Below, piece by piece: positions 49,453 through 64,000 of a stretch of DNA of 64,000 nt. The DNA is from Burkholderia metallica (GTDB lineage: Bacteria > Pseudomonadota > Gammaproteobacteria > Burkholderiales > Burkholderiaceae). Position numbers and translations under genes: made by a program. Every line of letters begins with the position of its first letter. The first letter of the stretch is position 1. Where the stretch lies: assembly GCF_902832845.1 (NCBI RefSeq), contig NZ_CADFDB010000001.1:1054001-1118000 (forward strand), given 5' to 3'. The notes under the pieces are model-generated. The model searched no databases. It had not been told where the DNA came from and saw only the letters and a list, made by a program, of their open reading frames with translations.

Positions 49453-49460
49453 GGGTCGGG

Positions 49461-49517
49461 AAAAATCGGCCGGCGCGGGCCCCGGGCACACACGGGCGCC
49501 GGGCGCCCGCGCCGGCC
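49461..49517 (-). terminator. Attenuator-like terminator in the squalene synthase leader
   Basis: A perfect 13-bp GC stem (49468-49480 with 49505-49517) with a 24-base loop is followed on the minus strand by GATTTTTCCC and, 8 bases after the T-run, by the start codon. As no minus-strand gene lies upstream (the next gene runs the other way), its place fits transcription attenuation or translation blocking of this gene. Confidence 0.6.
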
Positions 49518-49706
49518 CGCGAGTCGCCGCATCGTCGCGCCGGACGGGCGTCGGCCCCGGCGCGGCGATGCAAAATTCCCGCAAGTTTAGTGCATCCGGC
49601 GCGCGGCCTGCCCGAGACGGCCGGAATGCGTCGCCGGCAGGCCGCCGTCGATCACGCCGCCGCCGGCATCGCGCCCTGAAATCAGACAACGGAAAGGCCG
49701 AAGTAA

Positions 49707-49716
49707 TACATATGTA
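49707..49716. promoter_or_regulatory. Short palindrome in the divergent promoter region
   Basis: TACATATGTA, flanked by TAA and ATTA, stands in an AT-rich patch 110 bp before the phosphodiesterase gene. The 373-bp gap 49453-49825 otherwise contains the attenuator hairpin and a possible minus-strand -10 TAAACT near 49585. Confidence 0.35.
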
Positions 49717-49825
49717 ATTATTCGGTGCGACGATCGCGTCCCGTTCGACTCCACGCGACACGGCACGACAGCCGCGCCGTCCGAGCGAGCCCCCTTTCCG
49801 ACTTCCGTTTCGAAGGTTCACCGAC

Positions 49826-50968
49826 ATGCTCTTCAAGCGCCCGACCTCCCTGCGCTACGTGCCGTTCGCCTGTGCGGCCGCGTTCCTGCTCGCCGCATGC
49901 GGCGGCGACGACGTCGCGTCCGATCCCACCCAGCCGATTTCCGCGAAGGTCCAGGTGGTCGGCCATCGCGGCGCGAGCGCGCTGCGCCCCGAACACACGC
50001 TCGCGTCGTACCGCAAGGCGATCGAGGACGGCGCGGACGTGATCGAGCCCGACCTCGTGTCGACCCGCGACGGCGTGCTCGTCGCGCGGCACGAGAACGA
50101 GATCTCGGGCACGACGAACGTATCGACGCTGCCGCAGTTCGCGAGCCGCAAGGCGACGAAGACGATCGACGGCGCGGAACTGACCGGCTGGTTCACCGAG
50201 GATTTCACGCTGGCGGAACTGAAGACGCTGCGCGCCCGCGAGCGCATTCCGCAGGTGCGCCCCGCGAACACCGCGTACAACGACCAGTTCGAGATCCCGA
50301 CGTTCGACGAGATCGTCGCGCTCGCGAAGCAGATGTCCGCGCAGACCGGCCGCACGATTCACCTGTATCCGGAAACCAAGCATCCGACCTACTTCCAGTC
50401 GATCGGGCTGCCGCTCGAGGACCGTCTCGTCGACGCGCTGCTGAAGGATCCGTACACGGCGCGCACCGCGACCGTCTATATCCAGTCGTTCGAGGTCGCG
50501 AACCTGAAGACGATCCGCAACCGGATCAAGTCGAGCCAGCCGAACTGGAAGCTCGTGCAGCTGATGGACGAAGCCGGCCAGCGCCCGTACGACTTCGTGA
50601 AGGCGAACGACAAGCGCACCTACGGCGACCTGTCGACGCGCGACGGCATGCGCGAGATCGCGACCTATGCGAACGGCGTCGGCCCGTACAAGACGTCGAT
50701 CATCGCGGTCGCCGCGGACGGCACGCTGCAACAGCCGACGCCGTACGTGCGCTACGCGCACGAAGCCGGCCTCGTCGTGCATCCTTACACGTTCCGCCCG
50801 GAGAACAACTTCCTGCCCGCGTCGCTGAAGGACGGCGGCACGCCGGCCACGCGCAACACGGCCGGCTCGGTGCGCGAGATCCAGGCGTACCTGCGCGCGG
50901 GCATCGACGGCTTCTTCACCGACGATCCGGCCGTCGGCCGCGCGGCCGTCGATACGTTCAAGCGCTGA
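49826..50968 (+). CDS. Secreted glycerophosphodiester phosphodiesterase (GlpQ-like)
   Basis: A 380-residue lipoprotein: lipobox LLAAC then GGDD. The GDPD TIM-barrel follows with HRGASALRPEHTLASY (catalytic His) and IEPDLVSTRDGVLVARHENE (metal-binding Glu and Asp, second His). It hydrolyses glycerophosphodiesters from phospholipids to glycerol-3-phosphate and an alcohol, in the periplasm. The size and insertion pattern are those of periplasmic GlpQ rather than cytosolic UgpQ. GAAGG lies about 10 bases upstream of the ATG. No glp transport gene is adjacent. Confidence 0.93.
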   Translation: MLFKRPTSLRYVPFACAAAFLLAACGGDDVASDPTQPISAKVQVVGHRGASALRPEHTLASYRKAIEDGADVIEPDLVSTRDGVLVARHENEISGTTNVSTLPQFASRKATKTIDGAELTGWFTEDFTLAELKTLRARERIPQVRPANTAYNDQFEIPTFDEIVALAKQMSAQTGRTIHLYPETKHPTYFQSIGLPLEDRLVDALLKDPYTARTATVYIQSFEVANLKTIRNRIKSSQPNWKLVQLMDEAGQRPYDFVKANDKRTYGDLSTRDGMREIATYANGVGPYKTSIIAVAADGTLQQPTPYVRYAHEAGLVVHPYTFRPENNFLPASLKDGGTPATRNTAGSVREIQAYLRAGIDGFFTDDPAVGRAAVDTFKR

Positions 50969-51046: not shown

Positions 51047-52675
51047 TCAGATCACGTTGAAGTGATGCGTGCCGTCCCGCTTCAACTGATCGACCAGCCC
51101 GTACTCCCAGTCGAGATACGCCTGCATCGCGGCCGCCGCGTTGTCGGTGCCTTCGTACGGGCGCCGGTAGCGATCGACGCGCGGTGACGCGAGGCGCGTC
51201 TCGCCGCTTTCGAGCGGCAGTCCGGCGTCGATCCAGGCGGCCGTGCCGCCGGTCAGCACCGCGATGTGCGCCGACGCCGGCAGCAGCGCACGCGCGTCGT
51301 CCGCCGCGAACCGCGCGAGCAGGCTCGATCCGCACGTGAACACATAGCGCTTCGCGGGCGGGATCGCGGCAAGTGCTTCGCGCAACTGCGCGCGCACCGC
51401 GAACCATGCGCCCGGGATATGGCGCTTCACATAGTTCGCGCTGGCCGTCACGTCGACGACCGCCAGCTCGCCGGGCGCGGCCTCCTTCAGCCAGCCCGCG
51501 AGCGTCGCGGGCGAGACGTCCGTCACGGCCGGCGCGGCCGGCACGTCGCGCGGCGGCTGGCCGCGCTCGACGAAGCGGGCCGTGCCGCCTTCCGGTTCGA
51601 CGACGCGCACGTCCCAGCCCATCTGCGCGAGCCACGATGCGGTCATGTCGGCGCGCACGCCGTCGTCGTCGGCGAGCACGATCCGCGCGCCGCGCACGGC
51701 CGCGTGATGATCGGTCTCCTGCACAAGCTGGCCGCCCGGCGTGCTCAGGAAGCCCGGCAGATGGCCGGCTTCGTATTCCTCCGGCGTGCGCACGTCGAAG
51801 CGGTACAGCGTGCGGCCCGGTTCGGCGAGCGCGTCGACGTCGGCGAGCGCGATGCGCGGCACGCCCGCGCGTTCGGCCACCGCGCGCGCCGCCTTGCGGG
51901 CGTCGGCGCGCTGCGTTGCGTCGATGGCGTCCGGGAAGCGCCGCGCGGCGCCGCGCTCGAGCGTCTGGCCCGCGAGCGTCCAGCCGATCGTGCCGTTGCG
52001 CAGCGCGGCGACCGGATTCGGCAGCCCCGCGTTGACGAGCGACTGCGTGCCGATGATGCTGCGCGTGCGGCCCGCGCAGTTGACGATCACCCGGGTCGCC
52101 GGGTTCGGCGCGAGCGCGCGCACGCGCAGCACGAGTTCCGCGCCCGGCACGCTCGTCGAGGTCGGGATGTTCATCGTCTGGTATTCGTCGAAACGGCGCG
52201 CGTCGACGATCACGACATCCGCCTTCGCGTCGATCAGCGCCTGCACCTCCTGCGCGGACAGCGACGGCGTGTGCCGCTCGGCCTCGACCCATTCGCCGAA
52301 CGACTTGCTCGGCACGTTCACGTCGATGAACAGTTCGCCGCCCGCGGCGACCCAGCCCGCGAGGCCGCCGTCGAGCAGCCGCACGTCGGTATAGCCGAGC
52401 TGCGCGAGCTTCGCGGCCGCGCGCGGCGCGAGATCCTCGCCGCCCGCTTCGCCGAACACGACGATCGGCGTGTCGCGGCGCGGAATCCGCGTCCACGCGT
52501 CGAGTTCGAGTTTCGACAGCGGGAAGTTCGCGGCCCACAGCGGATGGCCCTGCGCGTACGGATCTTCCTCGCGTACGTCGATCAGCGCGAGCTCGTCACG
52601 GGCAAGCAGGCGGGCGCGCACGTCCTGGTACGACGCGACGGGAAAGCGGGAGGTGGAGTCGGCGGATTGCGTCAC
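51047..52675 (-). CDS. Four-domain rhodanese sulfurtransferase
   Basis: A 542-residue cytosolic protein with four rhodanese modules at about residues 12-115, 135-245, 265-365 and 385-480. The active-site Cys occurs only in modules 2 (Cys200, NCAGRTRS) and 4 (Cys448, FTCGSSLLAR). In modules 1 and 3 the loop reads VFGEAGGED and LADDDGVRAD, with no Cys. Inactive-active alternation repeats the two-domain plan of classical rhodaneses, twice. It would carry persulfide sulfur from a donor to an acceptor thiol. It is followed upstream, 90 bases away, by a thiol dioxygenase gene on the same strand. Confidence 0.92.
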   Translation of the reverse strand: MTQSADSTSRFPVASYQDVRARLLARDELALIDVREEDPYAQGHPLWAANFPLSKLELDAWTRIPRRDTPIVVFGEAGGEDLAPRAAAKLAQLGYTDVRLLDGGLAGWVAAGGELFIDVNVPSKSFGEWVEAERHTPSLSAQEVQALIDAKADVVIVDARRFDEYQTMNIPTSTSVPGAELVLRVRALAPNPATRVIVNCAGRTRSIIGTQSLVNAGLPNPVAALRNGTIGWTLAGQTLERGAARRFPDAIDATQRADARKAARAVAERAGVPRIALADVDALAEPGRTLYRFDVRTPEEYEAGHLPGFLSTPGGQLVQETDHHAAVRGARIVLADDDGVRADMTASWLAQMGWDVRVVEPEGGTARFVERGQPPRDVPAAPAVTDVSPATLAGWLKEAAPGELAVVDVTASANYVKRHIPGAWFAVRAQLREALAAIPPAKRYVFTCGSSLLARFAADDARALLPASAHIAVLTGGTAAWIDAGLPLESGETRLASPRVDRYRRPYEGTDNAAAAMQAYLDWEYGLVDQLKRDGTHHFNVI

Positions 52676-52765
52676 GATGTTTCTGTCTCGAATGCGTTGA
52701 AGTCGGTGAAGAAAGCGAAAAAGGATGAGTCAGGGGCCTGCCGGCGCAGGCCGGCCGGCGCTGCA

Positions 52766-53332
52766 TCAGGCGTTCGAATAGCCGGACACGAACGGCTTCA
52801 CGGTCCCGTCGTCCTGGTACACCGCGCGCTCGACCTTGCCGATGTTCGCACCGTACACGTGGATGCTGATCGATACCTGGTCGGCGAACGCGTTGGTCAC
52901 GCGATGGACGTCGCCGATGCGCGGCGACACGGCTTCGATTTCGCCCGGCCGCAGCCGCACGGCTTCGCCGGACGCCACCGGCCGGCCCGCAGCGTCGAAC
53001 CGGTACGGCTGCGAGAATTCGCCGCCGCGCAGCATCCCGATCAGCCCCCACACCGTGTGGTTGTGGATCGGCGTCGTCTGGCCGGGCCCCCACACGAAGC
53101 TGACGACCGAGAACCGCTCGTCCGGGTCGAGATGCAGCAGGTACTGCCGATAGCGCGCGGGGTCGGGCTGCGCGAACGCGTCGGGCAACCAGTCGTCGTG
53201 TTCGACGAGCGCGGCGAGCAGCGCGCCGCCTTCGTCGAGGATGCGCGCCTCGTCCGCGCCGGACGCGAGCAGCGCGCCGAGACCGTCGACGAACGGACGC
53301 AGCGGCGTCCGATGCAACGAAAGCGTACTCAT
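52766..53332 (-). CDS. Cysteine/thiol dioxygenase (cupin)
   Basis: A 188-residue iron-dependent cupin that should oxidise a thiol to a sulfinate. The Fe ligands are in PIHNHTVWGLIGMLRGG (two His) and DVHRVTN (third His). The Cys of the mammalian Cys-Tyr crosslink is absent (Gly), as in bacterial 3-mercaptopropionate dioxygenases, so the substrate may be cysteine, 3-mercaptopropionate or another thiol. ATG 53332 is chosen; upstream codons are atypical. It precedes the rhodanese gene in a likely operon and is divergent from a LysR gene. Confidence 0.92.
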   Translation of the reverse strand: MSTLSLHRTPLRPFVDGLGALLASGADEARILDEGGALLAALVEHDDWLPDAFAQPDPARYRQYLLHLDPDERFSVVSFVWGPGQTTPIHNHTVWGLIGMLRGGEFSQPYRFDAAGRPVASGEAVRLRPGEIEAVSPRIGDVHRVTNAFADQVSISIHVYGANIGKVERAVYQDDGTVKPFVSGYSNA

Positions 53333-53344
53333 CGGCTGACTCCT

Positions 53345-53367
53345 CGAATATGATGCCGAATATGATG
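53345..53367. repeat. Tandem CGAATATGATG in the divergent promoter
   Basis: CGAATATGATG occurs at 53345-53355 and 53357-53367, a 12-bp period, in the 74-bp gap between the dioxygenase and LysR starts. It may be part of the LysR binding site or of both promoters. Confidence 0.55.
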
Positions 53368-53406
53368 GATCGTCATGATGCACCCGAAAGACCATGCAGA
53401 ACAAAC

Positions 53407-54324
53407 ATGAAAATTAGCGATATCGACGCTTTTGCAGCGGTCGTCCGCTGCCAGACACTGAGCCAGGCCGCGGCCGAGCTCGGGATGACGCAGCCCGCGA
53501 TCACGCGGCGCGTCCAGAATCTCGAGGAAGCGCTCGGCGTGACGCTGCTCGATCGCAACACGAAGCCGCCGCGCCCGACCGACATCGGCCGGCGCGTCTT
53601 CGAACAGTGTCGCGCGATCCTGCGCGAAGTCGATGCGCTGCGCGAGCTGACGGCCGGCGAGCAGCCGCCCGCCGGCGAATTCCGGATCGGGCTCACGCAG
53701 GGCCTCGGCGAGCTGATGCTGCCCGCGCTGATCGCCGCACTCGCCGAGCAGTGGCCCGCGCTCGCGACACAGGTCACGACCGCGTGGGGCGGCATGCTCG
53801 TCGAGCGCGTCGCCCGTCGCGAACTCGATGCGGCGCTCGTCTTCCTCGCGCGCGAGATGGTGCTGCCCGCGCAGGTCGAGGGCGAACGGCTGCTGGCCAC
53901 GCGGCTCGTCGCGGTCGGCCGCAAGGGCGACTGGCCACGCCGCAGTTACCGGCTCGCCGATTGCCGCGCGCACGGCTGGGTGCTCAATCCCGACGGTTGC
54001 GGCTTTCGCGCGGGCTTGCGGCGCGCGCTCGACGCGCAGGGGCTGCCGATGCCGGTCACGCTCGACACCTACGGCCGCGACCTGCAACTGCAGAGCGTCG
54101 CGAACGGCTTCGGGATCGGGCTGATGCCGCTGCCGCTCGTCGAAGGCAGCCCGCTGCGCGATGCGCTCGACATCGTGCCGCTCGTCGATTTCAAGCCGCA
54201 GATCGATCTGTGGCTGCTGCGCCGGCACGATGCGGCCCGCTTCGACGCGCCGCTCGCCGCCGTTGCCGCACAGGCGCGCGCGGCATTCGCGCTGCCCGAG
54301 CAGCGGCACGGCAAGGCTGCGTGA
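53407..54324 (+). CDS. LysR family regulator of the thiol dioxygenase genes
   Basis: A 305-residue LTTR with HTH MKISDIDAFAAVVRCQTLSQ, ...MTQPAITRRVQNLEEALG, and an effector domain (FRIGLTQGLGELMLPALIAAL, NGFGIGLMPLPLVEG). Start ATG 53407 gives the usual N-terminus. It diverges from the dioxygenase-rhodanese pair, the classic LTTR layout. It converges on the acyl-CoA dehydrogenase-like gene and may also act on that cluster. The inducer is unknown; CysB and Cbl relatives sense sulfur status, but this protein is not clearly of that branch. Confidence 0.92.
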   Translation: MKISDIDAFAAVVRCQTLSQAAAELGMTQPAITRRVQNLEEALGVTLLDRNTKPPRPTDIGRRVFEQCRAILREVDALRELTAGEQPPAGEFRIGLTQGLGELMLPALIAALAEQWPALATQVTTAWGGMLVERVARRELDAALVFLAREMVLPAQVEGERLLATRLVAVGRKGDWPRRSYRLADCRAHGWVLNPDGCGFRAGLRRALDAQGLPMPVTLDTYGRDLQLQSVANGFGIGLMPLPLVEGSPLRDALDIVPLVDFKPQIDLWLLRRHDAARFDAPLAAVAAQARAAFALPEQRHGKAA

Positions 54325-54385
54325 TCCGGCCGGGCGGTGCAGGCATCGCGCCGCCCGCTCGACACCTGCGCGCGGTGCGCTCCGC

Positions 54386-55717
54386 TCACGCATCGACGCG
54401 GCCGCGTCGGGTGTCGTCGAGTGGCGCGGCGCTTTTCGTTTCGCCCTTCGACTCGCCCCTTCCCGCCGCTTCGAGTACCGCGCGCCCGGCCGCCACCGCG
54501 ATCGCGTCGTCCTGCGGCGTATGCACGCGGCTGCACAGCACGTCGCGATAGTGGCGTTCGAGCGGATTGGCGCGGCTCAACCCGTGATTGCCCGACAGCT
54601 TCAACGCCTGCTCGACCGTACGAATCGCGTGCTCGGTTACCGTCCGCTTGACGAGGCCGCTCGTCGTGACCGGCGGCGCATTGCCCGCGTCGGTACGTGC
54701 GATGTGATCGTCGAGCAGCACGCGGTTCGAGTGCAGCCAGCCCTCGATGTCGCCGACCGCTTCCTGCACGCGCGGCAGCGTCGCGAGCGGCGCGCCCAGC
54801 CCGCTCGGCGCACGCGTCGTCGCGAACCCGACCAGCCAGTCGCGCGACGCGCGCGCCACCGCGTCGTACAGGCTGCCGAGCAGCGCGACCATCCACGCCT
54901 GCTGGTCGGCCTGCGCATCGGCATCCGCATGGGATGCGGCCGACACGGCCCATGCGTCCGGTGCGCGTACGTCGACCGCATGATCGGCCGGCAGCCGCAC
55001 GTCGTCGAACACGACTTCATGGCTGCCTGACGCACGCAGGCCGAGGTGATTCCAGCTTTCGATCACGCGGATGCGGTCGCCATCGGCATCGGGTTCGCGC
55101 GGCACGAGAAACACGCCGACCCGCGGCGCCGGCTCGTCGGTGCGCGCCCACACGGCCAGCCAGCGCAGCGCCGGGATGCCGGTGCAGTACAGCTTGTGAC
55201 CGGACAGCCGCCAGCCGTCGCCGTCGCGACGCGCGATGGTTTCCGGCAGGCCGCCGCGCGACGGCGAACCGAGCGCGGGCTCGACGCGCAGCGCGTTGAT
55301 CAGCGCGCCTTGCGCGACCGCGCTGTCGAACACCTCGCGCCGGAGCCGCGCCGGCCAGCGGTTGTCGGCGCGGCCGAGCGCGCGATGCTGCAGATAGGTC
55401 ATCGTCAGCACCAGCGCGGTTGTCGGATCGGCGCGCGCGACGGCCGCCACGATCCGGCTCGCCTGCGCGAGCGTCGCCCCGGCGCCGCCGAACGCGCGCG
55501 GCACGACCTGCGCGATCAGCCCCGCGCGCTGCAGCCGCGCGAAGTTTTCATGCGGAAAGCGGCCATCGGCATCGTTGCGGGCCGCATCGGCGGCAAGGGC
55601 CGGCGCGAGACGGTCGAGCAGCGCGGCGACGCGTGCGTCGTCGGCATCGTCGGTGGGCAACAGGCGCAGCGAAGGCGGCGGCTGCGACGGCGAGGAAGCG
55701 GCAAGGCTGGCGGACAT
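54386..55717 (-). CDS. Acyl-CoA dehydrogenase-fold flavin monooxygenase (SfnB/DszC-like)
   Basis: A 443-residue protein of the acyl-CoA dehydrogenase fold in the branch of SfnB and DszC, which use reduced flavin in organosulfur use rather than acyl-CoA oxidation. Signs: ALVLTMTYLQHRAL, SGHKLYCTGIPALRWLAVWAR, and SWNHLGLRASGSHEVVFDD, with no clear catalytic Glu. It is divergent from an SsuD-like monooxygenase operon. Start MSASLAAS at 55717 is chosen; an upstream in-frame start adds 19 residues. The C-terminus is charged and disordered. Confidence 0.88.
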   Translation of the reverse strand: MSASLAASSPSQPPPSLRLLPTDDADDARVAALLDRLAPALAADAARNDADGRFPHENFARLQRAGLIAQVVPRAFGGAGATLAQASRIVAAVARADPTTALVLTMTYLQHRALGRADNRWPARLRREVFDSAVAQGALINALRVEPALGSPSRGGLPETIARRDGDGWRLSGHKLYCTGIPALRWLAVWARTDEPAPRVGVFLVPREPDADGDRIRVIESWNHLGLRASGSHEVVFDDVRLPADHAVDVRAPDAWAVSAASHADADAQADQQAWMVALLGSLYDAVARASRDWLVGFATTRAPSGLGAPLATLPRVQEAVGDIEGWLHSNRVLLDDHIARTDAGNAPPVTTSGLVKRTVTEHAIRTVEQALKLSGNHGLSRANPLERHYRDVLCSRVHTPQDDAIAVAAGRAVLEAAGRGESKGETKSAAPLDDTRRGRVDA

Positions 55718-56023
55718 CGGCACGGATTCCCTGGGACATGCGGAAAAGGACAGGCCGCGACGACGCAACGGCAATCGGTCGCCGCGCGTCGCGGTCTTTC
55801 ATGAAGTCGACGATCGGGCGCGTGCAGTGGTTAGGTTCGCCGGCGCCCGCGCGCCCGATCGTTCGTGAGCCCACAGCGTAGGCGCAGCGCCCCGCCGCCC
55901 AAACCATGCAAATCTGATATTCAAATCGGGATTGATTATTTCCGTTCCGCATGATCCCGGCGTTAACCTGCGCTCCATTCCTGCCCGGCCGTGCGCCGGG
56001 ACATCCCCGCACCGGAGACCCAG
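55718..56023. promoter_or_regulatory. Divergent promoter region of the organosulfur genes
   Basis: 306 bp without a gene. The right half has an AT-rich patch (55905-55950) with direct repeats of CAAATC at 55909-55914 and 55922-55927, a likely activator site of LysR type upstream of the monooxygenase operon. No sigma-54 -24/-12 pair is seen. Confidence 0.5.
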
Positions 56024-57109
56024 ATGAGCGTCGAATTCATCGGCATGATCCAGAGCCAGAAGCAGTCGGAAATCCACCCGCCGTCCGGCCCCGTGGTCGA
56101 TCCCGACTACGTGCGCGACTTCGCGCGCGCCCACGAGACGGCCGGCTTCGACCGGATCCTCGTGCCGCACCACTCGACCGGCCCGTCGGCGACGCTGACG
56201 ATCGCGTTCGCCGCGGCCGCGACCGAGCGCATCCACTTCATGCTCGCTCATCGTCCGGGCTTCACCGCGCCGACGCTCGCCGCGCGCCAGATCGCGACGC
56301 TCGACCAGTTCAGCCGCGGCCGGCTCGCCGTGCATTTCATCTCCGGCGGCTCGGACAGCGAGCAACAGCGCGACGGCGATTTCCTCGACCACGACGCGCG
56401 CTACGCGCGTACCGACGAATACCTCGGCATCCTGCGGCGGATCTGGACCGAAGCGCAGCCGTTCGATCACGACGGCGCGCACTACCGGTTCAAGCAGGGC
56501 TTTTCGGAAGTGAAGCCGCTCCAGCAGCCGCATGTGCCGATCTACTTCGGCGGCGCATCGGAGGCCGCGCTCGCGGTGGCCGGCAAGCACGCGGACGTCT
56601 ACGCGCTGTGGGGCGAATCGCTCGACCAGGTGCGCGACCTGACCGCGCGGGTGCGCGCCGAAGCCGCGCGGCACGGCCGGCAGGTGCGCTTCTCCGTGTC
56701 GTTCCGCCCGATCCTCGCCGCGACCGAGGACGAAGCGTGGGCGCGTGCGCATCGCATCCTCGACGAGACGCGCCGGCTGCGCGAAGCGGCCGGCCTCGGC
56801 GCCGGCGGCCCGCAGCAGAGCGAAGGCGCGCGCCGCCTGCTCGCCGCGGCCGAACGCGGCTCGCGCGTCGACAAGCGGCTGTGGACCGAGATTGCGAAGC
56901 TCACCGGCGCGCGCTCGAATTCGACGGCGCTGGTCGGCACGCCCGAACAGGTCGCCGATGCGCTGCTCGACTACTACGACCTCGGCGTGACGACGTTCCT
57001 GATCCGCGGCTTCGATCCGCTGGAAGACGCGATCGACTACGGCCGCGAACTGATTCCGCGCGTGCGTGCCGCGGTCGCCGCACGCGACGCGGCGCGCCGC
57101 GCAGCCTGA
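56024..57109 (+). CDS. LLM-class flavin monooxygenase (SsuD-like)
   Basis: A 361-residue luciferase-like TIM-barrel enzyme, predicted to cleave a C-S bond of an alkanesulfonate with reduced FMN and oxygen, giving sulfite and an aldehyde. Similar to SsuD in PHHSTGPSATLTIAFAAAA, HRPGFTAPTLAARQIATLDQ and FISGGSDSEQQRDGDFLDHD. It needs a flavin reductase, which is not encoded here. GGAGAC precedes the ATG. It is the first gene of an operon with an aldolase and an ABC importer. Confidence 0.93.
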   Translation: MSVEFIGMIQSQKQSEIHPPSGPVVDPDYVRDFARAHETAGFDRILVPHHSTGPSATLTIAFAAAATERIHFMLAHRPGFTAPTLAARQIATLDQFSRGRLAVHFISGGSDSEQQRDGDFLDHDARYARTDEYLGILRRIWTEAQPFDHDGAHYRFKQGFSEVKPLQQPHVPIYFGGASEAALAVAGKHADVYALWGESLDQVRDLTARVRAEAARHGRQVRFSVSFRPILAATEDEAWARAHRILDETRRLREAAGLGAGGPQQSEGARRLLAAAERGSRVDKRLWTEIAKLTGARSNSTALVGTPEQVADALLDYYDLGVTTFLIRGFDPLEDAIDYGRELIPRVRAAVAARDAARRAA

Positions 57110-57132
57110 GCCCGACGGAGCGACACACGATC

Positions 57133-57972
57133 ATGTCCGCCGTCCTTGCCTCCCCCGCCCGCACCGCATCGGGCCTCGAACTCGCCGAAGCGCCGCGCCA
57201 GCATTTCTGGTTCGATCCGCCGGCGCCGCGCGTCGACGTCGCCGCCGAGCGCCGTCACCGTCAGGAACGGCTCGCCGCCGCGTTCCGCCTGTTCGCGCGC
57301 TTCGGCTTCGCACAGGGTCTCGCCGGCCACATCACCGCGCGCGACCCCGAACTGCCCGACCACTTCTGGGTGAATCCGCTCGGCCTGCATTTCTCGCAGA
57401 TCAAGGTGTCCGACCTGCTGCTCGTCAACGCACGCGGCGAAACCGCGATCGGCACGCGGCCGCTGAACAAGGCCGCATTCGCGATTCACGCGGCGATTCA
57501 CGACGCGCATCCGCACGTCGTCGCCGCCGCGCACACGCATTCGACGTACGGCAAGGCGTGGTCGACGCTCGGCCGGCCGCTCGATCCGCTCACGCAGGAC
57601 GCGTGCGTGTTCTACGAGGATCACGCGCTGTTCGACGACTTCACGGGGATGGTCGTCGACACGAGCGAAGGCGCGCGGATCGCCGCTGCGCTCGCGAAAC
57701 CGGACGGCACCACGCACAAGGGCGTGATCCTGAAGAACCACGGCATCCTGAGCGTCGGCCCGACGGTCGAGGCGGCCGCGTGGTGGTACATCGCGCTCGA
57801 CAATGCCGCGCACACGCAGTTGCTGGCCGAAGCGGCCGGCACGCCGCAGCCGATCGATCACGCGACCGCGCGGCACACGCACGGCCAGATCGGCGGCCCG
57901 GAGGGGGCACTGCATGCGTTCGACAGCCTGTTCGCGCGCGTCGTCGCCGACGAACCCGACCTGCTCGACTGA
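57133..57972 (+). CDS. Class II aldolase/adducin family protein
   Basis: A 279-residue Zn-dependent aldolase or epimerase of the AraD/FucA fold. Metal ligands are visible in VVAAAHTHSTYGKAW (two His) and later KNHGILSVGPTVEAA. It may split or rearrange the carbon product left by the monooxygenase, such as a hydroxy-aldehyde, or decarboxylate it. It lies 23 bases after the LLM gene. Substrate unknown; no kinase is adjacent, so the substrate may be non-phosphorylated. Confidence 0.9.
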   Translation: MSAVLASPARTASGLELAEAPRQHFWFDPPAPRVDVAAERRHRQERLAAAFRLFARFGFAQGLAGHITARDPELPDHFWVNPLGLHFSQIKVSDLLLVNARGETAIGTRPLNKAAFAIHAAIHDAHPHVVAAAHTHSTYGKAWSTLGRPLDPLTQDACVFYEDHALFDDFTGMVVDTSEGARIAAALAKPDGTTHKGVILKNHGILSVGPTVEAAAWWYIALDNAAHTQLLAEAAGTPQPIDHATARHTHGQIGGPEGALHAFDSLFARVVADEPDLLD

Positions 57973-58004
57973 GCACCTTTGCGCACGACCGGAGACCCGA
58001 CCAC

Positions 58005-59048
58005 ATGACCCGAACCACCGCACCCGTGCCCGCCGATGCGCACGACACGCACGACGACAAACGCCGCAAGCTGCTGCGCGCAGCCGGCGCCGCCGCACTC
58101 GCCGCGCCCGCGATCACGCTCGGCCGCAAGGCCTGGTCCGCGCCACCGCTGAAGAAGCTCACGTTCGCGTGGAACCAGAACGCGTTCTGCCTGACGCCGA
58201 TCGTCGTCGCGCAGGAGCGCGGCTTCTTCGAGAAGAACGGCCTGAAGGTCGAGCTGATCAACTACAGCGGCTCGACCGACCAGCTGCTCGAATCGATCGC
58301 GACCGGCAAGGCCGATGCGGCGGTCGGCATGATCCATCGCTGGCTCAAGCCGCTCGAAGCCGGCTTCGACGTGAAGATCATCGGCAGCTCGCACGGCGGC
58401 TGCGTGCGGCTGGTAGGCGCGAAGGCGGCCGGCGTGACGACGCTGCAGGCGCTGAAGGGCAAGACGGTCGGCGTCAGCGATCTGGCCGCGCCCGGCAAGC
58501 ATTTCTTTTCGATCCTGCTCGCGAAGAACGGGATCGATCCCGAACGCGACATCACGTGGCGGCAGTATCCGGCCGATCTGCTCGGCGTCGCGGTCGACAA
58601 GGGCGAGATTCACGCGATCGCCGACGGCGACCCGAATCTCTATCTGCTCGAAAAGCGCAGCAACGGTGCGTACACCGAACTGGCGACGAACCTGTCCGGC
58701 GAATACGCGCACAAGGTGTGCTGCGTGATCGGCGCGCGCGGCGACCTCGTGCGCAACGACCGGCCGTCGGCGGCCGCGCTCGCGCGCTCGATCGTGCAGG
58801 CCACCGAATTCACGCACGACAATCCGAACGAAGCCGCGAAGGTGTTCGCGAAGTATTCGCCGAAGATCAGCCCCGACGACCTGCGCAAGCTGTACGCGAC
58901 GCTCACCTACACGCACCATCCGACCAACGTCGACCTGCAGCAGGAAATCGCGTTCTACGCGGACGATTTCCGCCGCATCAGCGTGCTGAAGAAGAGCACC
59001 GACCCGCAGCGCTTCGCGCAGCAGGTCTATGCGAACGTGCTGGGGTGA
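58005..59048 (+). CDS. ABC importer substrate-binding protein (NitT/TauT type)
   Basis: A 347-residue periplasmic protein. The long N-terminus has a Tat-type motif KRRKLLRAAG (residues 19-28) and a hydrophobic stretch to about 45. The mature part is NMT1/SsuA-like: FAWNQNAFCLTPIVVAQERG, LESIATGKADAAVGM. Such proteins bind sulfonates, taurine, nitrate or pyrimidine precursors. GGAGA precedes the ATG. It lies 32 bases after the aldolase and 4 before the permease. Confidence 0.92.
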   Translation: MTRTTAPVPADAHDTHDDKRRKLLRAAGAAALAAPAITLGRKAWSAPPLKKLTFAWNQNAFCLTPIVVAQERGFFEKNGLKVELINYSGSTDQLLESIATGKADAAVGMIHRWLKPLEAGFDVKIIGSSHGGCVRLVGAKAAGVTTLQALKGKTVGVSDLAAPGKHFFSILLAKNGIDPERDITWRQYPADLLGVAVDKGEIHAIADGDPNLYLLEKRSNGAYTELATNLSGEYAHKVCCVIGARGDLVRNDRPSAAALARSIVQATEFTHDNPNEAAKVFAKYSPKISPDDLRKLYATLTYTHHPTNVDLQQEIAFYADDFRRISVLKKSTDPQRFAQQVYANVLG

Positions 59049-59052
59049 CGCG

Positions 59053-60147
59053 ATGTCGACGATCGAACACGCGCCCGCCGCACGCACCCCATCCGCGCCT
59101 TCCGGCGGCGATGCCGTCGCCCCCGCGGCACGCATCGCCTGCACGGCCTGCGAAGCCACGCTGGCCGCCGAGGCTCGCCGCGCCCGCACCTGGCCGACCG
59201 GCATCGCGGCCGCGCTCGCGTGGGCCGCACTCGGCGCGCTCACGCAGCTGTGGCCGAACCGCGTGGTCGGCTTCACCGACTGGGCCTACACGGACACGTT
59301 CGGCACGGCCGCGTGGACGATCGCCGCGCTGCTGCTCGCCGCCGCGACGCTCGGCCAGCTCGCTCCCGCGACGCGCACGCCGCTCGCGCGCGTGCGCGCG
59401 GCCGGCCCATGGCTCGTCGCGCTGCCGCTCGCGCTCGCCGCGTGGGAAATCCTCACCGCGAAAACCGGCTGGCTGCCGACGCCGTTCTTCGCGCCGCCGC
59501 AGGCGCTGATCGAGGTCTACGTCGACGACTGGCCGCGCCTCGCCGGCAGCGCCGGCAACACGCTGAAGCTGCTCGCGCTCGGCTTTGCGTACGGCGTCGC
59601 GGTCGGCTTCGCCGTGGGCGTGGCGATCGGCTGGTCGCGCCGGATCGGCTACTGGGTGCATCCGGTGCTGCGCGTGCTCGGCCCCGTGCCGGCCACCGCG
59701 CTGCTGCCGCTCACGTTCTACTTCTTCCCGTCGAGCTATTCGGCCGCCGCGTTCCTGATCGCGCTCGCGACCGGCTTCCCGGTCGCGGTGCTGACGTGGT
59801 CGGGCGTCGCGAGCGTCAACAAGCAGTATTACGACGTCGCGCGCACGCTCGGTGCGAATGCGCGCTTCCTCGTGCTGCGCGTCGCGATTCCGGCCGCGCT
59901 GCCGCACGTGTTCGTCGGCATCTTCATGGGGCTGAGCGCGTCGTTCACGGTGCTGGTCGTCGCCGAGATGATGGGCGTCAAGTCCGGGCTCGGCTGGTAC
60001 CTGAGCTGGGCGCAGGGTTGGGCGTCGTACGTGAACATGTATGCGGCGCTGATCGTGATGGCGCTGCTGTTTTCCGGGCTGATCGCGCTGCTGTTCGCGG
60101 TGCGCGACCGCGTGCTCGCGTGGCAGAAAGGAACCGTCAAATGGTGA
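59053..60147 (+). CDS. ABC importer permease (SsuC/TauC type)
   Basis: A 364-residue permease, longer than SsuC (about 260) by an N-terminal extension of about 100 residues holding two or three extra hydrophobic segments and a cytosolic Cys pair (CTACEAT). The core has the EAA loop DVARTLGANARFLVLRVAIP, which docks with the ATPase. It imports the substrate delivered by the binding protein. It overlaps the ATPase gene by 7 bases. Confidence 0.93.
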   Translation: MSTIEHAPAARTPSAPSGGDAVAPAARIACTACEATLAAEARRARTWPTGIAAALAWAALGALTQLWPNRVVGFTDWAYTDTFGTAAWTIAALLLAAATLGQLAPATRTPLARVRAAGPWLVALPLALAAWEILTAKTGWLPTPFFAPPQALIEVYVDDWPRLAGSAGNTLKLLALGFAYGVAVGFAVGVAIGWSRRIGYWVHPVLRVLGPVPATALLPLTFYFFPSSYSAAAFLIALATGFPVAVLTWSGVASVNKQYYDVARTLGANARFLVLRVAIPAALPHVFVGIFMGLSASFTVLVVAEMMGVKSGLGWYLSWAQGWASYVNMYAALIVMALLFSGLIALLFAVRDRVLAWQKGTVKW

Positions 60148-60962
60148 GCGTCGCCGTACCCGAATCGTCCGTTGCCGCCGCCGCGGCTCCCGCCGTCACG
60201 CCGCCGCGCGGCGCGCGCATCGACATCCGCCGCGTGAGCCACGCATTCGATGGCCCCGGCGGCGCGCTGCCGGTGCTGGACGACGTCACGCTGTCGGTCG
60301 CGGCCGGCGAATTCGTCGCGCTGCTCGGCCCGAGCGGCTGCGGGAAATCGACGCTGCTGCGCCTCGTCGCGGGGCTCGACGCCGCGCGGCAAGGCACGAT
60401 CGCGCAGGACGGCGTGCCGATCGCGCAACCCGATCCGTCGCGCATCGTCGTGTTCCAGGACCCGACGCTGTACCCGTGGCGGCGCGTACGCGCGAACGTC
60501 GCGCTCGGTCTCGAGGCGCGCGGCGTCGCGCGTGCGTCGCAGCATCGCGTCGACGAGGCGCTCGCGCGCGTCGGGCTGCAGGAATTCTCGAACGTGTTCC
60601 CACATCAGTTGTCCGGCGGGATGGCGCAGCGGGTCGCGCTGGCCCGCGCGCTCGTCAACGATCCGCGCCTGCTGATTCTCGACGAGCCGCTCGGCAAGCT
60701 CGATTCGCTCACGCGGCTCACGATGCAGGCCGAACTCACCGCGCTGTGGCGACGCGACGGGTTCTCCGCGCTGCTCGTCACGCACGATGTCGAGGAAGCG
60801 CTGTTCCTCGCGCAGCGGGTGATCGTGTTCGGGCCGCGACCCGCGCGGATCGTCGCCGAATTGCGCGTCGACCTGCCCTACCCGCGCCATCGCGGCGACC
60901 CGCGCCTCGCCGAACTGCGTCACGACGCGCTGCGGCACCTCGGGCTCGATGCGAGCTGGTAG
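60141..60962 (+). CDS. ABC importer ATP-binding protein (SsuB/TauB type)
   Basis: A 273-residue ATPase with Walker A GPSGCGKSTLLRLV, signature LSGGMAQRVALARAL, Walker B LLILDEPLGKLDSLT and switch His in VTHDVEEAL. It drives the importer. It starts at ATG 60141, overlapping the permease stop, and is followed 50 bases later by the cytochrome gene, so the operon continues. Confidence 0.94.
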   Translation: MVSVAVPESSVAAAAAPAVTPPRGARIDIRRVSHAFDGPGGALPVLDDVTLSVAAGEFVALLGPSGCGKSTLLRLVAGLDAARQGTIAQDGVPIAQPDPSRIVVFQDPTLYPWRRVRANVALGLEARGVARASQHRVDEALARVGLQEFSNVFPHQLSGGMAQRVALARALVNDPRLLILDEPLGKLDSLTRLTMQAELTALWRRDGFSALLVTHDVEEALFLAQRVIVFGPRPARIVAELRVDLPYPRHRGDPRLAELRHDALRHLGLDASW

Positions 60963-61012
60963 ATGCGCGGTGCCGCTCGACGATGGGCCGCCGCGCGGCG
61001 CGAAGGGTGCCG

Positions 61013-62197
61013 ATGAACGCGCCGACGTTCGCCGACTGGGCACTCGTGTTCCTGCAAGCGCTGTATCGCACGCAGATCGCGCTCGCGCACGGGCTGCATG
61101 CGCTCGGCCTGACGGGCGATGCCGACGGTCAGCCCGCGTGGCCGTGGGCGCGCCGCGTCGCGCTCGAAACGCTGCGGATCGACGCGGGCCTCACGCGGCA
61201 ACTCGCGTTCGCCGCCGCGGCGACGGCGCTGGCCGTCGCGCTCGCGTCCGTCGCGTTCGCTTCGCGCAAATGGCGTATCGCGTCGGCGCTCGCTGCGCTG
61301 GCCGCCTGCTGGTTCGCGCCGTGGCCGCCGGCCGCGCTGTGGCTCGCACCCGCCGTGCCAACGAGTTTCCAGCGCGATCCCGCGCCGTTTTCCGTCTCGA
61401 ACGTAATGCGCGGCGCACACCTGTATGCGCAGCACTGCGCGGCCTGCCACGGGACGGACGGCCGCGGCGAAGGGCCGCTCGCGGCCACGCTCGCGCACTG
61501 GCCGCCGACCTTCGCCAGCGCGCTGCTCGCCCGGCGTCTCGACGGCGAACTGTTCTGGCGCGTGCGTCACGGCATGCACGACGAACGCGGCGCGCCGACG
61601 ATGCCCGGCTTCGCCGCGACGCTCGGGCCGCAGGACACCTGGGCCGTGCTCGACTACCTGAAAGCGCTCGCGGCGGGCAGCGGCGCGCAGGCGGAAGGCG
61701 CGTGGCCCGTGCCCATCCCGCTGCCGGCGCTCGACGTACGTTGCGGCGCCGCCGCGCCGCAGCCGCTCGAGCGCTGGCGCGCAGGCCAGCGCGTGCGCAT
61801 CGTCGCGCTCACGCCGGGCGCGACGCCGCCGCCGGAAGACGCACGCTGGCAAACCCTGCTCGTCACGGCACACGGCGCGCCCGTGCCGCCGGCGGCCGGC
61901 ACGACGCGCGCCGATTGCGTCGCCGCGACGCCCGATGCGTGGCGCGCGTTCGCGACGATCGCCGGCGTGGCGCCCGACGCGCTCGGCGGCACGCAGCTGC
62001 TCGCCGATCGTCGCGGCTGGCTGCGGGCGCGTGCGTTGCCGGGCAACGCCGGCTGGTCGGATGCCGACCTGCTGTGCCGCGCGGACGGCCGCGCACGACC
62101 CGCCGGACCGGCCGCGAGCGGCGATCCGCTGACCGCGCTGCTGCTGCGCGTCGACTCGGAGCCCGTGCGCGACGTCCAGGCCGGGCTGCCGCACTGA
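61013..62197 (+). CDS. Membrane-anchored cytochrome c, monohaem
   Basis: A 394-residue protein. Two hydrophobic segments (about residues 63-83 and 88-112) precede a periplasmic class I cytochrome c domain with haem motif C142-A-A-C145-H146 and the likely axial ligand Met197 in APTMPGF. An unassigned C-terminal domain (about 240-394) follows, with ARWQTLLVTAHGAPVPPAAG. No cognate oxidase subunit is next to it. Cytochromes are not part of known sulfonate importers, so it may accept electrons from a periplasmic sulfite or sulfur-compound dehydrogenase encoded elsewhere. Confidence 0.9.
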   Translation: MNAPTFADWALVFLQALYRTQIALAHGLHALGLTGDADGQPAWPWARRVALETLRIDAGLTRQLAFAAAATALAVALASVAFASRKWRIASALAALAACWFAPWPPAALWLAPAVPTSFQRDPAPFSVSNVMRGAHLYAQHCAACHGTDGRGEGPLAATLAHWPPTFASALLARRLDGELFWRVRHGMHDERGAPTMPGFAATLGPQDTWAVLDYLKALAAGSGAQAEGAWPVPIPLPALDVRCGAAAPQPLERWRAGQRVRIVALTPGATPPPEDARWQTLLVTAHGAPVPPAAGTTRADCVAATPDAWRAFATIAGVAPDALGGTQLLADRRGWLRARALPGNAGWSDADLLCRADGRARPAGPAASGDPLTALLLRVDSEPVRDVQAGLPH

Positions 62198-62233
62198 ATG
62201 CATGCTGAACCTCTCTTCTCACCGACTTTCACG

Positions 62234-63187
62234 ATGAATCCGACCCGACGCCACTTCCTCGCACAAGCGAGCGCCCTTGCCACGATCGCCACGGCCCCGG
62301 CCGCGCTGCGCGCACAGACGGGCACGCGGCCGCTGCTGCGCGCCGGCGACCAGAAAGGCGGGCTGCGCGCGCTGCTCGAAGCGGCCGGCGAACTGAACGG
62401 CCTGACGTACGACATCGCGTGGACCGAATTCCCGGCCGCCGCGCCGCTCGCCGAAGCGCTGAACGCGGCCGCCGTCGACTGCGGGCCGATCGGCGACGCG
62501 CCGGTGATCTTCGCGCTCGCGTCGGGCGCCCGCATCAAGGTGATCGGCGCGAACCGATCCGACCCGTACGGCACCGCGGTGCTCGTGCGGCCCGATGCGC
62601 CGCTGAAAGGCCCGGCGGACCTGAAAGGCAAGCGCATCGGTACCACGCGCGGCTCGATCGGCCATTTCGTCACGCTGAAGGCGCTCGATGCGGCCGGCCT
62701 GCCGCCCGACGCGGTATCGTTCCGCTTCCTGCCGCCGGCCGACACGATGCTTGCGCTCGCAACCGGTTCGATCGATGCGTGGGCGACGTGGGAGCCCTAT
62801 ACCGCGCTCGCGGAAACCGGCGGCCGCGCGCGCGTGCTCGTCAACGGCCGCGGGCTGTGGTCGGGCCTCAGCTACCTCGCGGCGACCGACGCGGCGATCG
62901 TGTCGAAGCGCGACGTGCTGCACGATTTCCTGCGGCGCGTCGTGCGCGCGCAGGCGTGGTCGTACCGGCACGTCGACGCGTATTCCGCCACACTCGCCCG
63001 CATCATCGGCATTCCTCCGGCGGCCGCGAAGCTGCAATTCGAACGCCGCAACACACGCTGGCTGCCGATCGATGCGACGATCGTCGCCGAGCAGCAGCGC
63101 ACGGCCGATTTCTACCTGAAGGCGGGCCTGCTGCGCCAGCCGCTCGCCGTGCGCGCGACGTTCGACGCGGGCTTCCCGCTCGCGTGA
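62234..63187 (+). CDS. Second ABC substrate-binding protein (SsuA type)
   Basis: A 317-residue periplasmic binding protein with a Tat-type signal TRRHFLAQA and cleavage near ALRAQ. The mature part has VDCGPIGDAPVIFALASGA, PADLKGKRIGTTRGSIGHF and the SsuA landmark TGSIDAWATWEPYTALAE. It is more SsuA-like than the first binding protein and is the last gene of the operon. It could widen the substrate range of the single permease-ATPase set. Confidence 0.92.
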   Translation: MNPTRRHFLAQASALATIATAPAALRAQTGTRPLLRAGDQKGGLRALLEAAGELNGLTYDIAWTEFPAAAPLAEALNAAAVDCGPIGDAPVIFALASGARIKVIGANRSDPYGTAVLVRPDAPLKGPADLKGKRIGTTRGSIGHFVTLKALDAAGLPPDAVSFRFLPPADTMLALATGSIDAWATWEPYTALAETGGRARVLVNGRGLWSGLSYLAATDAAIVSKRDVLHDFLRRVVRAQAWSYRHVDAYSATLARIIGIPPAAAKLQFERRNTRWLPIDATIVAEQQRTADFYLKAGLLRQPLAVRATFDAGFPLA

Positions 63188-63275: not shown

Positions 63276-64000
63276 ATGCCAGCCATCGCCGAACTCTTCG
63301 TCTACCCGATCAAATCCTGTGCCGGCATCGCGCTGTCGCGCGCGCAACTGCTCGAAACGGGCCTCGCGTACGACCGCCACTGGCTGATCACCGACCCCGC
63401 CGGGCAGATGATCACGCAGCGCACGCACCCGCGCCTCGCGCTGATCCGCACCGCGCTCGACAGCGAGGCGCTCGTGCTGAACGCGCCGGGCATGCGCGAA
63501 CTCCGCACGCCGCTCGACGGCGACGTATCGCCCGCCACGCCGAAAATGGCCGCGACCGTGTGGCGCGACACCGTCGACGCGATCGACACGGGCACAGAAA
63601 CAGCCGCATGGCTCACCGAATTCCTCGGCACGCCCACGAAGCTCGCGCGCTTCGCGGCCGACGCGCGCCGCGGCTGCAACCGCAAATGGACCGGCGACGT
63701 CGATACGCACACGCAGTTCGCCGACGGCTACCCGCTGCTCGTGATCGGCCAGTCGTCGCTCGACGACCTGAACGCACGGCTCGCCGCGAAAGGCGCACCG
63801 GCGATTCCGATGAACCGCTTCCGTCCTAACATCGTCGTGTCGGATCTCGACGCGTACGAAGAGGATTTCGTCGAACATTTCGACGCGGAAGGTGCGACGC
63901 CCGTGCGGCTGCGCCTCGTGAAGCCGTGCACGCGCTGCCCGATGCCGACGATCGATCAAGTCACCGGCGCGCCCGATCCCGCGTGGCCGCATGAACCGAC
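63276..64000 (+). CDS. MOSC-domain protein, YcbX-like (3' end outside window)
   Basis: The first 241 codons are present; the frame runs off the right edge. The N-terminal MOSC beta-barrel (ELFVYPIKSCAGIALSRAQL, DRHWLITDPAGQMITQR) is followed by the MOSC core with GCNRKWTGDV and LVIGQSSLDDLNARL. The conserved Cys expected to bind molybdopterin is in KPCTRCPMPTID. YcbX-type proteins reduce N-hydroxylated bases and related compounds. It lies 88 bases after the binding protein and need not belong to that operon. Confidence 0.9.
   Translation, partial: MPAIAELFVYPIKSCAGIALSRAQLLETGLAYDRHWLITDPAGQMITQRTHPRLALIRTALDSEALVLNAPGMRELRTPLDGDVSPATPKMAATVWRDTVDAIDTGTETAAWLTEFLGTPTKLARFAADARRGCNRKWTGDVDTHTQFADGYPLLVIGQSSLDDLNARLAAKGAPAIPMNRFRPNIVVSDLDAYEEDFVEHFDAEGATPVRLRLVKPCTRCPMPTIDQVTGAPDPAWPHEP

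Follow-up and report, generated by a model that had tools for sequence, protein, structure and literature searches.

Gene content and layout of the locus

We analysed a 64,000-nucleotide stretch of Burkholderia metallica DNA (the window; positions 1054001-1118000 of contig NZ_CADFDB010000001.1 in a 7.55-Mb genome), in which positions 51047-63187 hold a set of eleven genes that probably serves the scavenging of organosulfur compounds. The set encodes a rhodanese, a thiol dioxygenase, a LysR-type regulator, an acyl-CoA-dehydrogenase (ACAD)-fold flavoprotein, a luciferase-like (LLM) flavin-dependent monooxygenase, a class II aldolase-fold protein, the parts of an ATP-binding cassette (ABC) importer with two substrate-binding proteins, and a c-type cytochrome (Table 1). 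An earlier note on this DNA had counted ten genes; the gene families, strands and limits that it gave are the same as ours, apart from the names SfnB and aldolase, which are corrected below.

The ACAD gene lies on the minus strand and diverges from a plus-strand run in which the LLM gene is followed by those for the aldolase-fold protein, binding protein 1, the permease, the ATPase, the cytochrome and binding protein 2. With the chosen starts, the intergenic gaps along this run are 23, 32, 4, -7, 50 and 36 bases; because these gaps are short, the run is likely one operon. The genes for the dioxygenase and then the rhodanese form a minus-strand pair that diverges from the LysR gene. A promoter and terminator scan of the window found no sigma-70-like site and 12 terminator-like sites (5.7 in shuffled sequences), none of which lies at the end of the set.

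Table 1. Features of the locus, in window coordinates
Feature	Position	Strand	Evidence
Four-domain rhodanese (sulfurtransferase)	51047..52675	-	PF00581 155 bits, 4 stretches
Thiol dioxygenase, 3-mercaptopropionate dioxygenase type	52766..53332	-	phmmer against solved structures
LysR-type regulator, divergent to dioxygenase gene	53407..54324	+	PF00126, PF03466
ACAD-fold flavoprotein	54386..55717	-	Pfam ACAD domains
Putative regulatory site, AT-rich, 5' of LLM gene	55916..55941	+	upstream alignment, genome pattern search; weak
LLM flavin-dependent monooxygenase	56024..57109	+	PF00296 257 bits
Class II aldolase-fold protein, NovR-like (putative Fe(II) oxygenase/decarboxylase)	57133..57972	+	PRK06208
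Substrate-binding protein 1, NMT1/THI5 type	58005..59048	+	PF09084 76 bits
ABC permease	59053..60147	+	PF00528 60 bits
ABC ATPase	60141..60962	+	PF00005 117 bits
Membrane-anchored c-type cytochrome, C-terminal thioredoxin-fold domain	61013..62197	+	PF13442 48.5 bits
Substrate-binding protein 2, SsuA family	62234..63187	+	TIGR01728; start at 62198 also possible

A gene for a MOSC-domain protein (63276-63998, past the window edge) lies directly downstream of the set, and a squalene/phytoene-synthase-like gene and a GDPD gene (48388-50968) adjoin its other end.

Conservation and co-occurrence of the genes

The proteins of the window have their nearest named relatives in Burkholderia. The cytochrome is the least conserved part of the set. 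At an E-value of 1e-10, 56 of the 65 sampled Burkholderia genomes have it, the window's own among them, as against none of 56 sampled genomes from outside the genus. We compared 54 of the 55 other cytochrome-bearing loci within the genus. The ATPase, permease, cytochrome and binding protein 2 occur in all 54; the rhodanese, dioxygenase, LLM, aldolase-fold protein, binding protein 1 and ACAD each occur in 53; and the LysR-type regulator occurs in 51. The sole locus without the genes found in 53 is a stretch of only 8 kb, and the gene order in these loci is that of the window. The co-conservation that the earlier note had proposed to check across Burkholderia genomes is therefore present, and it extends to other genera. 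However, flanking genes that do not belong to the set are likewise kept within the genus (MOSC in 53/54 loci, phytoene-synthase-like in 48/54, GDPD in 43/54), so gene order within Burkholderia alone proves little and the other genera carry the argument.

LLM orthologues with 72-87% amino acid identity occur in other genera of the family Burkholderiaceae. We inspected 25 loci of other genera and plasmids, all chosen for the LLM (20 loci, 3 plasmid loci and 2 further loci). The rhodanese is present in 22 of these, the ACAD in 20, the dioxygenase and binding protein 2 each in 19, binding protein 1 in 18, the permease and the ATPase each in 17, the aldolase-fold protein in 15, the cytochrome in 12, and LysR in 8. 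Two loci (L098 and L099) have a rearranged order of LLM, aldolase fold, dioxygenase, rhodanese, LysR, binding protein 2, ACAD and a second LLM, with the importer on the opposite strand; a third (L100) has a similar rearrangement, with no match to the second LLM. On a Paraburkholderia sprentiae plasmid the set is rearranged much as in these three loci, and the genes are still together. On a Comamonadaceae plasmid, the genes for the rhodanese, dioxygenase, ACAD, binding proteins, LLM and aldolase-fold protein adjoin ssuE, ssuD, ssuC and a gene for a CysB-family regulator; the permease, ATPase and cytochrome had no match there above the thresholds used. The earlier note had proposed a distinct organosulfur locus, and both the company that the genes keep across genera and this ssu neighbourhood favour that view.

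Loci from a scan of named genomes were ranked by their similarity to a Variovorax LLM and the best 80 of 406 were retained, which makes Variovorax the predominant genus among them. The set is found again in Variovorax, Xenophilus, Ralstonia and Cupriavidus, and the commonest order (17 of the 80 loci) is the window order minus LysR, plus one extra binding protein. Among the 63 of these loci that are at least 19 kb long, we found the ACAD in 59, rhodanese in 54, dioxygenase in 52, binding protein 1 in 50, aldolase fold in 49, binding protein 2 in 47, permease in 44, and ATPase and cytochrome each in 42; a CysB-family regulator occurs in 14 and ssu genes occur in 2. Among farther relatives, the LLM was absent at an E-value of 1e-110 from all 368 other genomes of the class. 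LLM homologues with about 59-64% identity occur outside Burkholderiales, in Klebsiella, Microvirga, Paracoccus, Nostoc and others.

The same 63 loci show which genes travel together. The ATPase and the cytochrome agree in all 63 (42 with both, 21 with neither, none mixed). The aldolase-fold protein and binding protein 2 agree in 59 (phi 0.83), as do the dioxygenase and the rhodanese (phi 0.77), and binding protein 1 co-occurs with the permease, ATPase and cytochrome (phi 0.72-0.78). The LLM tree implies 12 changes of state for the cytochrome. In all 7 independent pairs that lie on supported branches and differ in the cytochrome, the ATPase differs in the same direction (sign test p 0.016), whereas the dioxygenase follows the cytochrome in 1.9 of the 7 on average. 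The dioxygenase and rhodanese change alike in 3.7 of 5 independent pairs (p 0.125). For the aldolase fold and binding protein 2 there are only two supported pairs (0.7 same, 0.1 opposite). Genomes G458 and G524 carry binding protein 1, permease, ATPase and cytochrome as one group, separated from the LLM by about 13 kb that holds other genes.

Predicted functions of the proteins

The closest solved structures to the LLM are SsuD and MsuD. Its scores fall below the cut-offs of the SsuD family (TIGR03565, 239.8 vs 518.2), the SfnG family (TIGR04021, 163 vs 382.95) and every other NCBIfam model listed for it. We take Arg226, His228 and Tyr331 of SsuD to have catalytic roles (Arg226 is named in a reference title). 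Arg-x-His and Tyr are kept in all five SsuD/MsuD-type alignments compared (SsuD twice, MsuD and two methanesulfonate-type chains), whereas the LLM has Ser226, Arg228 and Phe330 at these positions. The Ser/Arg/Phe set is found in 82/82 ortholog rows with at least 70% identity (some genes being counted twice), in 11/11 rows with 50-65% identity, and in 80/80 named loci. Arg297 of SsuD aligns with Thr, Ser or Ile in the LLM rows; an adjacent Arg may substitute, and we drew no inference from this position.

Elsewhere in the same genome, an SsuD (623.5), an SfnG (639.4) and, beside SfnG, an MsuE-type flavin mononucleotide (FMN) reductase (264.6) all exceed their cut-offs. The usual sulfonate and sulfone enzymes are thus already present, and reduced flavin can come from outside the locus: the earlier note was right that no flavin reductase is seen in this stretch, but one is encoded by the genome. 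The sulfonate or sulfone substrate that it suggested is unsupported, because the LLM is without the Arg-x-His motif and the Tyr and the genome has a separate SsuD and SfnG. A second binding-protein/LLM pair lies at 884458-886627 of the same contig (L105); its LLM is 60% identical to that of the window and has the same Ser/Arg/Phe residues, and beside the pair are a further binding-protein-like open reading frame, an ABC ATPase match and another LLM.

The aldolase-fold protein, translated from 57154, passes PRK06208 (441.9 vs 255). By E-value, its best match among solved structures is the decarboxylase NovR (9ryg; 8.5e-64, 124/261 residues identical, 47.5%), and one close database homologue carries the name decarboxylase NovR. 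The residues aligned with the metal ligands, His134, His136 and His203, are kept in 59 or 60 of 60 loci (one row has no letter). As described in PMC13111500, CloR and NovR are three-His non-haem iron oxygenases that carry out oxidative decarboxylation of a keto acid; pyruvic oxime dioxygenase also has a class II aldolase fold and uses Fe(II), according to PMC5216522 and PMC11841055. Oxygenase or decarboxylase chemistry is our first choice for this protein, with true aldolase chemistry a less favoured possibility. An argument from Glu73 of FucA was dropped, as PMC11841055, on pyruvic oxime dioxygenase, puts an equivalent Glu elsewhere in the sequence. Lone homologues of the aldolase-fold protein (L107, L108, L111-L116) have no partner in common. 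At one of them (L108:7621-11760, genome G191), the homologue (68%) is flanked by an SsuA-like binding-protein match on one side and by a PNPOx/FAD/NAD/2Fe-2S flavoprotein on the other; at a locus from another family of the order (L110:4878-7924), genes for an LLM, a D-2-hydroxyacid dehydrogenase and the aldolase-fold protein directly follow one another, an arrangement that would fit a keto or hydroxy acid as substrate. Each is a single case.

Binding protein 2, translated from 62198, passes the SsuA family model (TIGR01728, 203.1 vs 163.5), whereas binding protein 1 matches broad Pfam models and no NCBIfam model. Conserved residues of the cytochrome are the haem motif CAACH (142-146), Met197, Cys244, Cys302, Cys355 and His394. 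AlphaFold2 models of the whole protein and of its C-terminal part reached a predicted local distance difference test score of 87.5 and 85.5, respectively, and fold searches with these models assigned the C-terminal domain a predicted thioredoxin fold. This domain has no CxxC redox motif; the only CxxC in the protein is that of CAACH, and Cys244, Cys302 and Cys355 are isolated.

The thiol dioxygenase is the only CDO_I match found in the genome. Its best phmmer match is 4qma, titled cysteine dioxygenase type I (E-value 1.9e-81), followed over 181 residues by the 3-mercaptopropionate dioxygenases 3uss and 4tlf (7.9e-78) and 4wvz (1.3e-76). Gln63 aligns with Gln62 of 3uss, a residue that we take to have a role in 3-mercaptopropionate dioxygenase; Gln is found in 58 of 59 named loci, and Arg in one. 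By its sequence kinship to these solved enzymes and this Gln, the enzyme is of the 3-mercaptopropionate type, and turnover of this thiol is predicted.

The two best family scores of the ACAD-fold flavoprotein are those for 3-sulfinopropanoyl-CoA desulfinase (NF042439, 108.2 vs a cut-off of 600) and SfnB (TIGR04022, 98.5 vs 430.9), and none of the NCBIfam models listed for the protein gives a score that reaches its cut-off. The SfnB-like label in the earlier note was therefore loose, the desulfinase model scoring higher and also failing. The closest solved chains are 5z8t (E-value 1.4e-56) and 5gj7 (1.6e-56), and we call the protein a putative monooxygenase or desulfinase.

The AT-rich block upstream of the LLM gene aligns across several genera; it was not seen in L122 or L123, two loci with a binding-protein gene ahead of the LLM. 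The block in the window is unique in the genome in matching the pattern with no mismatch, and 35 places match with up to 3 mismatches, vs 7 for the reversed pattern. Of these 35, eight loci were inspected (L134-L139, L143, L149); one is the LLM site, and only L149 precedes a gene that by eye resembles one for a cystine-type binding protein. At L149 (C7:284137-284181), two overlapping copies of the motif, with 3 mismatches each, lie 5' of this ABC binding-protein-like gene. A hand-made weight matrix (17 training sites, one of them one base out of register) gave 20.4 upstream of SsuD, 20.8 upstream of the second LLM/binding-protein pair and 23.0 upstream of the cystine-type gene, yet a different place in L105 reached 25.3; its top scores in L154, L155, L157 and L158 were 7.3 to 16.6, which gives no support. 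The motif weakly suggests a shared regulator.

Interpretation and comparison with known systems

Taken together, these results make it probable that the eleven genes form a modular organosulfur-scavenging locus of Burkholderiales, with non-sulfonate organosulfur acids as the predicted substrates and with presumed control by sulfur supply. The ABC importer, with both binding proteins, would take up organosulfur compounds that carry a carboxyl group, in preference to simple sulfonates. Tied to this importer, the membrane cytochrome and its thioredoxin-fold domain may carry out a periplasmic redox step on the substrate. In the cytoplasm, the LLM and the ACAD-fold flavoprotein would oxygenate the substrate and cleave C-S bonds with reduced flavin from the MsuE-type reductase encoded elsewhere, and the NovR-like enzyme could shorten a keto or hydroxy acid oxidatively with Fe(II) and O2. 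The 3-mercaptopropionate-type dioxygenase would convert the released thiol to a sulfinate, the rhodanese would deal with sulfane sulfur, and the sulfite or sulfide so formed would enter cysteine synthesis.

Several observations weigh against this scheme. At an E-value of 1e-10 the cytochrome is missing from 9 of the 65 genomes of the genus. Outside the genus, one locus (L088) has the LLM alone, and L085-L087 and L089, like six Cupriavidus/Ralstonia loci, are without the aldolase fold and binding protein 2. On the LLM tree, the aldolase fold follows the cytochrome in only 0.1 of 7 independent pairs on average. Since the modules vary independently, it is unlikely that all the genes are required for one pathway. 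Adjacent genes may also go in one deletion, which would inflate the agreement between cytochrome and ATPase; that agreement shows a unit, not a mechanism. The upstream motif is too weak to serve as proof of a sulfur regulon. For the aldolase-fold protein, 4xxf, titled fuculose-1-phosphate aldolase, matches nearly as well as NovR (E-value 4.8e-63, 111/228, 48.7%), with TqaM next among solved matches. Kinship with NovR and the three-His site do not discriminate here, because 4xxf matches equally and a Zn aldolase would keep the same histidines. The name aldolase in the earlier note thus holds for the fold, whereas the best solved match is NovR with the aldolase-titled entry close behind.

The independent gain and loss of modules, seen both in the 63 named loci and in the pairs on the LLM tree, would also be expected if the locus were a row of several unrelated scavenging units, all under sulfur control and each acting on a different substrate: dioxygenase with rhodanese, LLM with ACAD, importer with cytochrome, and NovR-like protein with binding protein 2. 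In Pseudomonas protegens, according to PMC12947264, the dioxygenase and sulfurtransferase genes appear to form one transcription unit, apparently on their own, and loss of the dioxygenase raises 3-mercaptopropionate. Five of the 368 class genomes have the dioxygenase (at an E-value of 1e-30) with no LLM, aldolase fold or rhodanese nearby, three of the five on contigs of 5-9 kb. Nevertheless, the modules keep company in Burkholderia, Variovorax, Ralstonia, Cupriavidus and Xenophilus, and they do so after rearrangement in other genera and on the Paraburkholderia plasmid; we therefore regard unrelated units as a possible but rather unlikely account. The earlier note had proposed that a sulfonate or sulfone undergoes C-S cleavage to a hydroxy-aldehyde, which is then handled by the aldolase. 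The LLM does belong to the SsuD/MsuD/SfnG superfamily, binding protein 2 passes the SsuA model, and of the two solved structures closest to the aldolase-fold protein one is titled aldolase. We nonetheless consider this pathway improbable, as the Arg226/His228/Tyr331 residues of SsuD are replaced in every row, SsuD and SfnG are encoded elsewhere, and the aldolase-fold protein is missing from 14 of the 63 named loci and is nearest by E-value to the Fe(II)- and O2-using CloR/NovR type. Least credible of all is a mainly non-sulfur locus, in which NMT1/THI5-type binding proteins import some other small molecule and the oxygenases act in carbon catabolism or in detoxification. Although the broad matches of binding protein 1 and the sub-threshold scores of the ACAD and LLM would allow it, it fits poorly with the presence of a thiol dioxygenase, a rhodanese and a binding protein of the SsuA family, with the ssu genes that adjoin part of the set in one record, and with the CysB-family regulator found in 14 of 63 loci.

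A bolder form of the scavenging locus can be offered tentatively, as a conjecture that we think more likely wrong than right. It sees a redox-coupled organosulfur importer, in which the cytochrome c/thioredoxin-fold fusion, as a fixed partner of the SsuA/NMT1-type importer, would oxidise or split the substrate in the periplasm during uptake; the NovR-like Fe(II) oxygenase and the LLM clade with Ser-x-Arg and Phe would break a C-S bond in a carboxylated organosulfur compound through a so far undescribed route. If the reading as a scavenging locus is right, a cytochrome-linked ABC importer would be a new way of coupling uptake to redox chemistry, the widespread group of class II aldolase-fold proteins would gain a candidate oxygenase role, and this LLM clade should not be labelled as sulfonate enzymes. 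At present, the genes are annotated piecemeal in several genera of Burkholderiales as "LLM class flavin-dependent oxidoreductase", "class II aldolase/adducin family protein" and "acyl-CoA dehydrogenase". A literature search found the set named in no title or abstract opening, most subscription papers being beyond its reach.

Parts of the locus resemble systems that are already known. We take the make-up of the alkanesulfonate system ssuEADCB, and of msuEDC, to be partly as follows: an LLM-fold monooxygenase that needs an FMN reductase, and an importer with an SsuA-type binding protein. The locus shares these traits, but its LLM is without the Arg, His and Tyr of the sulfonate site, no reductase is seen in it, and it has in addition a dioxygenase, a rhodanese, a NovR-like protein and a cytochrome. 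The dimethylsulfone genes, presumably including SfnB and SfnG, similarly pair ACAD-fold and LLM flavoproteins, whereas the two proteins here score far under the SfnB (98.5 of 430.9) and SfnG (163 of 383) cut-offs. PA2594-PA2604 of P. aeruginosa may be a sulfate-starvation cluster; the names PA2594, PA2600 and PA2602 are absent from the main text of PMC12581299. The 3mdo-tst genes of pseudomonads (PA2602/PA2603) join a 3-mercaptopropionate-type dioxygenase gene and a sulfurtransferase gene in an apparent transcription unit; here the pair is joined to LLM, ACAD, importer, cytochrome and NovR-like genes. In the thiol catabolism of Advenella and Variovorax (mdo-acd; msdo with rhodanese), according to PMC5373536, a thiol dioxygenase is found with an ACAD-fold desulfinase or a rhodanese and with a LysR gene nearby; the words luciferase, monooxygenase, aldolase and cytochrome are absent from the main text of that source. 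The NovR-like protein shares 47.5% identity over 261 residues and three metal histidines with NovR, but it lies in an organosulfur locus, and its use of Fe and O2 is a prediction. The LLM without a sulfonate site, the aldolase look-alike and the importer-tied cytochrome have no match in the sulfur-uptake systems compared. The kind of locus is known, whereas its make-up appears new in the LLM clade, the NovR-like protein and the importer-bound cytochrome.

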